Shown one piece after another: positions 14,329 through 17,613 of a stretch of DNA of 64,000 nt. The DNA lies in NCBI RefSeq assembly GCF_900446215.1, contig NZ_UAQZ01000012.1:310001-374000 (forward strand). The letters are read 5' to 3'. The DNA is from Burkholderia cenocepacia (lineage in GTDB: Bacteria; Pseudomonadota; Gammaproteobacteria; Burkholderiales; Burkholderiaceae). The position numbers and the translations under genes were made by a program. A model generated the notes under the pieces. It was not told where the DNA came from and did not search any database. It saw nothing but the letters and a program-made list of their open reading frames with translations. The first letter of the stretch is position 1; the number at the start of each line of letters is the position of its first letter.

Positions 14329-14504
14329 GGCGGGCGATCCGAAACGGTGAAAGGAACGGCATTGTACGAGGCGAGTGGCGGCGCTCCTGCACTATCCAGT
14401 ACATTTTTGTCGCGGCTGTTGCACCCGAATCGCCGGTCTGGCGGCCGATGATTGGCGCTACAATGCCGTCGAACAGTTATTCTAATCCGCCCGTCACGAG
14501 ACAC

Positions 14505-16805
<2,301 letters not shown>

Positions 16806-16859
16806 GCCAGAACGAACGCGCCACCCGGTCGAACCGGCGTGGCGCGCCCGGGAAAATTG

Positions 16860-17018
16860 TAAACAAAAGCAAAAAGAGGCGTGCCCGCAACGGGCACGCC
16901 ACCGGGCAGGGCGCACACGCGCTTCCCGCAAAGCAACAGCAGCATCTCTCCACTCCAGGCAGCGAGCGAGGCAAGGAGGCAGTTCTTGCCCACCGAGAGG
17001 TGCCGCACGCATTCTATC
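16860..17018 (-). ncRNA. Candidate small RNA transcribed toward maeB
   Basis: On the minus strand, TTTACC (17052-17047) and TATCTT (17030-17025) are spaced by 16 bases and could drive transcription starting near 17018. About 120 bases later a perfect 10-bp hairpin, GGCGTGCCCG-TTG-CGGGCACGCC, is followed by TCTTTTTGCTTTTG, a good intrinsic terminator, yet no leftward protein gene ends there. The transcript would be about 150 nt and contains the pyrimidine-rich stretch CUGCCUCCUUGCCUC, which could pair with Shine-Dalgarno sequences. Burkholderia small RNAs with carbon-metabolism roles are known (ncS27, for example), but I could not verify identity with any of them. Confidence 0.55.
16866..16900 (-). 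terminator. Intrinsic terminator for leftward transcription
   Basis: Read on the minus strand, the 10-bp stem 16900-16891 / 16887-16878 with a 3-base loop is followed by TCTTTTTGCTTTTG. It faces the end of maeB and has no leftward protein gene to serve. Confidence 0.7.
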
Positions 17019-17030
17019 TTATGTAAGATA
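17015..17030. promoter_or_regulatory. 16-bp palindrome over the small-RNA promoter
   Basis: TATCTTA-TG-TAAGATA has perfect 7-bp arms. It overlaps the proposed -10 element of the leftward small RNA and lies about 150 bases upstream of the RNase gene. ATCTTAT...ATAAGAT-type palindromes are typical of GntR-family operators, but the regulator cannot be named from the sequence. Confidence 0.5.
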
Positions 17031-17181
17031 AATGTAGTGCGATTTCGGTAAAAAATGCGGAATTCGCGGCATCGCGAGGCTTTCCATTCCCAAACGGACA
17101 TTGATTCGCGCGGCCAATAACGCTACGCTAACGCCTTTGTTGGTCGTCAACTACTTGATTTAACAGCGGGAACCCTGGTTC

Positions 17182-17613
17182 ATGGCACGCAAGTGGCTCC
17201 GCAACGGCGCGCTCGCGTCCGTCTTCGCGATGTTCGCGATGGGTATCGTCGGCACGCCGACGGGCAGTCTGGTTTCCGCCGCTTACGCACGGGAGGCCGT
17301 TCCGGCCGACGTGGCTGCCAGCGGGCTCGATACGATCCCGACTGCCAGTCTTCCGCGCGAGGCCGTGACCACGCTAAGCCTGATCGCCGCCGGCGGCCCC
17401 TATCCGTACGAGAAAGACGGCGTCGTATTCGGCAATCGCGAGCGGATCCTGCCGAAGGCGAAGCGCGGCTACTACCATGAGTACACGGTGCCGACGCCGC
17501 GTGCGCGCAATCGCGGCGCGCGCCGGATCGTCTGTGGCGGTCCGTTGCGCCGGATCGACAACTGTTATTACACGGGCGACCACTACAACAGTTTTAAACG
17601 TATTGTTGAATGA
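17182..17613 (+). CDS. Exported guanyl-specific ribonuclease (barnase/RNase Sa family)
   Basis: A protein of 143 residues with an N-terminal hydrophobic signal (residues 1-36, ending SAAYA). The mature part has GGPYPYEKDGVVFGNRE, then YYHEYTVPTP with the catalytic Glu100, RGARRIV with the phosphate-binding Arg, and YYTGDHYNSF with catalytic His134; this matches microbial RNase Sa closely. Two cysteines (118 and 128) could form a disulfide after export. A barstar-like inhibitor gene follows 16 bases later, which would protect the cell from any enzyme left inside. Confidence 0.88.
   Translation: MARKWLRNGALASVFAMFAMGIVGTPTGSLVSAAYAREAVPADVAASGLDTIPTASLPREAVTTLSLIAAGGPYPYEKDGVVFGNRERILPKAKRGYYHEYTVPTPRARNRGARRIVCGGPLRRIDNCYYTGDHYNSFKRIVE

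Follow-up and report, generated by a model that had tools for sequence, protein, structure and literature searches.

A conserved structured small RNA gene beside maeB in Burkholderia, most likely encoding a trans-acting anti-Shine-Dalgarno RNA under a nearly private operator

The intergenic region between maeB and a barnase-like RNase gene

The window analysed here is a stretch of 64,000 nucleotides from Burkholderia cenocepacia (assembly GCF_900446215.1, contig NZ_UAQZ01000012.1, positions 310,001 to 374,000 of the forward strand), and all positions are counted from its first letter. The region between maeB and a barnase-like RNase gene contains a conserved structured small RNA gene on the minus strand, and comprises the following features.

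14448 to 16805, plus strand: maeB (malic enzyme), neighbour, beside the RNA in 60/60 fetched loci
16868 to 17004, minus strand: small RNA gene of about 135 nt with predicted ends, based on conservation, structure covariation and a covariance model match at 16871-17010
16868 to 16900, minus strand: intrinsic terminator, stem 16900-16878 plus T-rich tail
16963 to 16985, minus strand: hairpin GGCAAG...CUUGCC with GCCUCC at the loop and the loop's 3' edge (the seed); GCCTCC in 60/60 loci, six of seven helix pairs changed on both sides
17011 to 17016, minus strand: candidate -10 element TAGAAT (genus consensus TAAAAT), from column counts over 60 loci
17013 to 17032, no strand assigned: operator-like palindrome, consensus TTTATC-N8-GATAAA (one mismatch in the source genome), from conservation and genome scans
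17182 to 17613, plus strand: barnase-like RNase gene (Pfam Ribonuclease PF00545, E 3.6e-25), neighbour, divergent from the RNA, in 60/60 fetched loci

The open reading frame at 14448..16805, which we take to be maeB by recognition, agrees in length with BCAL3395 of B. cenocepacia J2315. According to the portions of the sources available, J2315 has at least two malic-enzyme genes, BCAL3395 (PMC3596321) and BCAL0205 (PMC3862766), the former lying at complement 3719319..3721676 (PMC4603805). BCAL3395 is taken as the orthologue, judged by length and start position: its 2358 bases equal the length of the window frame, which also has an ATG at the place of the re-annotated start of BCAL3395, 57 bases in. 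In J2315 the small RNA would accordingly be expected on the plus strand of chromosome 1, at about 3,719,120-3,719,255.

The two neighbours flank the RNA region in all the fetched Burkholderia loci, and the RNA aligns in every one of them; this set of 60 leaves out one genome (G031), although it was matched by blastn. With a 231-base query, blastn found a match in 51 of 61 Burkholderia genomes, and the neighbouring RNase gene is present in all ten genomes without one. A plasmid collection searched with the small RNA region gave no match, while a contig pattern scan returned at least 119 stretches, 27 of them titled Burkholderia and the other 92 taken as chance. The long minus-strand open reading frames of the region run antisense through maeB and are taken as mechanical. 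The description of the RNA as antisense in an earlier reading made from the sequence alone (the sequence-only reading) is correct by position only, as the minus-strand terminator stops about 60 bp before the maeB stop at 16805, and a test for cis-antisense overlap found none between the maeB coding region and the RNA, whose predicted 3' end lies at about 16868.

The leftward intrinsic terminator proposed in that reading is borne out by a stem of 10 bp (16900-16878), nine of them G-C pairs, followed by a T-rich tail. Other evidence from the single sequence is weak: a sigma-70 scan of the region yielded zero promoters at the scan threshold, terminator-like sites (3) are not above the shuffle mean (2.4), and the fold z-score of the region is -2.61. 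The case for an RNA gene thus rests on comparison.

Comparison also moves the promoter. The hexamer TATCTT, proposed as the -10 of a promoter TTTACC-N16-TATCTT, varies over the 60 loci, whereas a TAAAAT hexamer at the downstream edge of the palindrome is nearly invariant (column counts T60 A60 A59 A54 A59 T60) and is the best -10 candidate, reading TAGAAT at 17016-17011 in the source genome. Transcription would accordingly be expected to start near 17004, giving an RNA of about 135 nt instead of the 150 nt suggested before. The palindrome said to lie on top of the -10 does exist, but it sits in the promoter spacer and only touches the -10. No clear -35 was found at the small RNA promoter, which would fit a regulated promoter without proving one.

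Conservation, structure and distribution of the RNA

The sequence-only reading had made its small RNA depend on conservation better than that of random intergenic DNA, and this holds: the mean pairwise column identity over 50 loci is 0.87 for the RNA (16871-17004), against 0.64 and 0.66 for the spacers at 17048-17080 and 16806-16860, respectively. The single elements reach 0.96 (terminator), 0.88 (seed hairpin), 0.85 (palindrome) and 0.99 (-10) in the same loci, and over all 60 loci the identity is 0.775 for the RNA versus 0.56 and 0.55 for the spacers. The minus-strand RNA gene is backed by strong comparative evidence. The non-coding leader of the RNase gene (17081-17181) has an identity of 0.96 in the 50 loci and 0.92 in the 60, above the small RNA in both, so that intergenic conservation here is not unique to the RNA; a structure search of this leader gave no convincing RNA structure.

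A small protein encoded in the RNA region, for which a GGAG-like sequence upstream of an ATG (GAGTGGAGAGATG) could speak, is highly improbable, as the frame is not conserved: it meets a stop after five codons in 8 of 50 loci and none within 200 codons in some others. This test covers one candidate ATG over 50 loci, L051 having no such ATG and L037 being matched only by GTG. The small protein was rejected on this ground, in agreement with the earlier description of about 120 bases without a protein.

The structure itself covaries. RNAalifold predicts 25 pairs from the 60 sequences, 11 of which have at least one change on both sides. Covariation was assessed in 44 sequences, comprising 31 of the 60 loci and 13 of the 14 best matches from other genera (L323 left out), in which 98.3% of the cells of the seed hairpin and terminator are paired and 9 of 16 pairs are changed on both sides. 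None of 500 shuffles reaches these values or the covariation score and a single one attains the number of pair types, while slid versions of the two structures pair in 40-55% of cells. The stem between the 5' region and GAGAGAUGC is paired in 431 of 450 cells over 50 loci (slid versions, 34-55%). The conservation of stem-loops across Burkholderia, suggested at the outset as a check, is thus seen in the covarying seed hairpin and terminator.

The seed is constant in sequence, with GCCTCC in 60/60 loci, TGCCTCC in 59/60 and CTGCCTCC in 56/60, and its loop bases are 68-100% unpaired in the ensemble. The stretch CUGCCUCCUUGCCUC, which the sequence-only reading had pointed out as able to pair with Shine-Dalgarno regions, is present, and conservation together with covariation backs that ability. 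The RNA thereby possesses the conserved, exposed, CU-rich seed complementary to GGAGG that marks the anti-Shine-Dalgarno class of sRNAs, and the GCCUCC loop is, from its sequence and predicted fold, a plausible anti-Shine-Dalgarno seed.

In the wider family, a covariance model search (E <= 0.01, under stricter filters that lose weak matches) had matches in 41 of 160 genomes, representing 5 of 25 genera; the source genome has one match. Among the 25 first matches outside Burkholderia, 22 (L318-L331, L334-L341) are flanked by maeB and the RNase gene. The remaining three (L342, L344, L346) and the extra matches L343 and L345 have neither neighbour and were treated as false. TGCCTCC is found in the 14 best relatives, which belong to two genera, while eight weaker syntenic matches (seven from one genus, one from another) keep a terminator but lack this sequence; in these the element is remodelled or only partly homologous, which weighs against the small RNA explanation. 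Two further copies (L332, L333) occur in one genome (G029), apart from maeB and the RNase gene; their seed is altered to CTGCCTCTC, the stretch shown lacks the palindrome, and the genes nearby are presumably LysR-like, as read by recognition.

The tight synteny with maeB, in 60/60 fetched genus loci and 22/25 first matches in other genera, could mean that the conserved block is mainly a structured 3' end or an antisense element serving the maeB mRNA, not a trans-acting RNA. We consider this improbable: the orientation of the terminator with its T tail, the -10 element and the palindrome all fit leftward transcription, the RNA stops before maeB, the conserved loop is CU-rich on the leftward strand, and the two G029 copies sit apart from both neighbours.

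The promoter palindrome and its possible regulator

The sequence-only reading had taken the palindrome to be the site of a regulator; the palindrome is confirmed as exact, and its conservation and the joint changes of its arms support such a site. The source genome (8.04 Mb) contains one exact copy of the palindrome TATCTTATGTAAGATA, at 17015-17030. Of the 60 loci, 51 have TATC-N8-GATA in its usual position, and the full consensus is exact in 47. In the nine loci without it, four have single changes and five are broken (L053, L055-L058), these last having a copy just upstream that is exact in L053 and L058 and degenerate in L055, L056 and L057. Among the 14 best relatives in other genera, the palindrome or a paired-arm variant was found by script in ten and by eye in L323, while L319, L329 and L331 have degenerate forms only. 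In L318 and in three of the eight weaker matches (L335-L337) the two arms have changed together to TTTAGC/GCTAAA, which fits recognition by a symmetric dimer, and some relatives (L323, L324, L327) have two sites at a distance of 21-22 bp. TTTATC-N8-GATAAA is a conserved operator-like site.

A scan of ten genomes found nine exact copies of the consensus; eight are at the small RNA promoter, in seven genomes (G102 having two), and the ninth is at another place in G072, a distribution that suggests a nearly private regulator. Allowing up to one mismatch raises the count to 58 forward sites, compared with 18 for the reversed pattern; 49 of the 58 carry one mismatch, two of them at the small RNA promoter (G000, G072) and 47 elsewhere, across the ten genomes. 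The exact site thus appears nearly private, but a regulator with a looser taste could have more sites; these 47 copies, and the nine loci without the palindrome at its usual place, weigh against the small RNA explanation. The scan was also used in search of the regulator, and gave scattered one-mismatch sites. A recurrent group among them, TCTATC-N8-GATAAA, flanks one gene and precedes another in three genomes (L072, L357, L359), genes that by recognition we take to be TetR-like and OsmC-like, respectively, and is apparently a separate operator.

The form of the palindrome had suggested control by a GntR-family metabolic regulator. The source genome has palindromic sites of the type TGTCTTATATAAGACA (L062, L063, L065, L067) upstream of mdh and a divergent GntR/UTRA gene, and of icd, aceA and acnB; the GntR/UTRA gene adjoins an sdhC-like gene (mdh, sdhC, icd, aceA and acnB being our assignments by recognition from the translations). 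Within this genome these are the closest palindromic kin of the small RNA palindrome, with CTTAYATAAG in common, and a literature search gave no recognised paper on that operator. Sites of the TGTCTTATATAAGACA type (up to two mismatches) number 2-5 per genome in 61/61 genomes, among the matches listed, whereas the reversed pattern occurs, among the matches listed, zero times in 56 genomes and once in five; all 18 genomes examined for the regulator gene have it.

Membership of the small RNA in a regulon of this GntR/UTRA (HutC-type) regulator with mdh, sdh, icd, aceA and acnB is attractive in the source genome alone, yet it was rejected on the genus-wide comparison and we regard it as unlikely. 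The TCA-cycle sites keep their sequence in all 61 genomes, among the matches listed, including G005 and G050, whose small RNA site is disrupted or has the sequence TATCTCGACCAGGATA. The invariant positions are not the same in the two kinds of site, and TGTCTTATATAAGACA is not conserved at the small RNA gene. With a distinct consensus maintained for each kind in the same genomes, one regulator for both is unlikely, and the proposed GntR-family control is not supported.

Relation to known sRNAs, candidate targets and proposed function

No Rfam family matches the region at the gathering score. The double-hairpin RNAs of RF02278, also termed 'toxic' RNAs, which include Burkholderia ncS03, ncS05, ncS27 and ncS62 and which B. 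pertussis S17 resembles at its 5' end, are similar according to the available text of PMC5688073 and PMC11722255 in being short intergenic RNAs with an intrinsic terminator and with CU-rich unpaired stretches reported or predicted over ribosome-binding sites. However, the RF02278 model gave no match even at E up to 10, which places the RNA outside that family as modelled, and the four Burkholderia members are 57-92 nt long (PMC5688073, as available) against about 135 nt here. The Neisseria siblings NmsR / NgncR_162 and NgncR_163, compared by description from the available part of PMC9973317, likewise have three stem-loops and a stem-loop sequence obstructing the ribosome-binding sites of many metabolic mRNAs; they are sibling sRNAs, whereas the maeB-side RNA is single-copy in its own genome and its targets are putative.

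There is a considerable, if minority, chance that the RNA is an already recorded but uncharacterised transcript, for instance one of the 41 short intergenic transcripts reported in J2315, 15 of which are tabulated in the available text (PMC5688073), or another supplementary entry. It is absent from the main-text lists of 15 sRNAs (PMC5688073) and 34 sRNAs (PMC10987360) in their available portions, supplementary lists lying outside this scope, and from Tables 3 and 4 of the transcription start site paper as far as these are shown (PMC4603805). The main texts of PMC5688073 and PMC4603805, so far as available, gave nothing for ncS28, ncS29 or coordinates beginning 37191 or 37192, and a term search of the accessible parts of PMC10175445 and PMC5719362 was without match. 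The 40 RNAs of B. thailandensis (PMC4035088) and nine of B. pseudomallei (PMC3521395) are listed in the portions available, but exclusion by place covers J2315 only.

The idea that the RNA tunes central carbon genes found no convincing target set. The pattern GGAGGCAG-N(1-10)-ATG occurs 26, 19, 13 and 42 times in G000, G042, G005 and G050, against 9, 5, 8 and 8 for the reversed pattern, an excess that may simply reflect ordinary ribosome-binding sites. When the distinct sites were compared between the four genomes (22/22 in G000, 19/19 in G042, 13/13 in G005 and 36/39 in G050), two clear ortholog pairs emerged, an enoyl-CoA hydratase-type gene (G000/G005) and a LuxR-type-domain gene (G042/G050), the other matches being weak; a domain scan of the G000 and G042 members gave enoyl-CoA hydratase/isomerase-type and a LuxR-type domain, respectively. 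The start of the former, GGAGGCAGGCAGATGGC, is exact in at least 41 of 61 genomes, with gene identity taken from G000 and G005 only. It is not a convincing target, as little can be concluded from a conserved ribosome-binding site in front of a conserved gene, and 8.7% of 2000 random GGAGG leaders pair with the RNA as well or better. The GGAGGCAG ribosome-binding site also occurs at two related genes of G050 (L233, L291; 34% identical), presumably PPK2-like as read by recognition.

Sequence comparison supports the RNA gene and its structure, together with the invariant seed and the operator-like site; transcription, repression rather than activation, translational blocking and the targets are inferred. 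In this view, the promoter with its conserved TAAAAT-type -10 would drive leftward transcription of an independent small RNA of about 135 nt, ending at the intrinsic terminator short of maeB. Within the promoter spacer, TTTATC-N8-GATAAA is probably recognised by a dimeric DNA-binding protein that would keep the RNA repressed until a signal releases it. A hairpin loop of the RNA would then expose UGCCUC, whose most likely partners in trans are Shine-Dalgarno regions of the GGAGG type in several mRNAs; the pairing may block ribosome binding, a mechanism proposed because of the anatomy of the RNA and of published RNAs acting in that way. This explanation as a whole, combining an independent sRNA, an operator-bound repressor and anti-Shine-Dalgarno pairing in trans, is judged probable. 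A bolder version is put forward tentatively: a new Burkholderiaceae sRNA family might possess a private switch, in which a regulator reads TTTATC-N8-GATAAA (with arms that co-change to TTTAGC/GCTAAA in relatives and, in some species, a tandem arrangement spaced by 21-22 bp) essentially only at one promoter per genome, and in which the whole output would be one translation-reprogramming RNA.

The comparison corrects a tempting assignment of the small RNA promoter to the TCA-cycle GntR regulon. A structured RNA at one locus in every aligned Burkholderia genome and in related genera probably serves the group as a core regulator, although Rfam has no family for it. The invariant seed and the nearly private operator open two questions to direct test: which mRNAs the RNA would act on, and which protein would control it.
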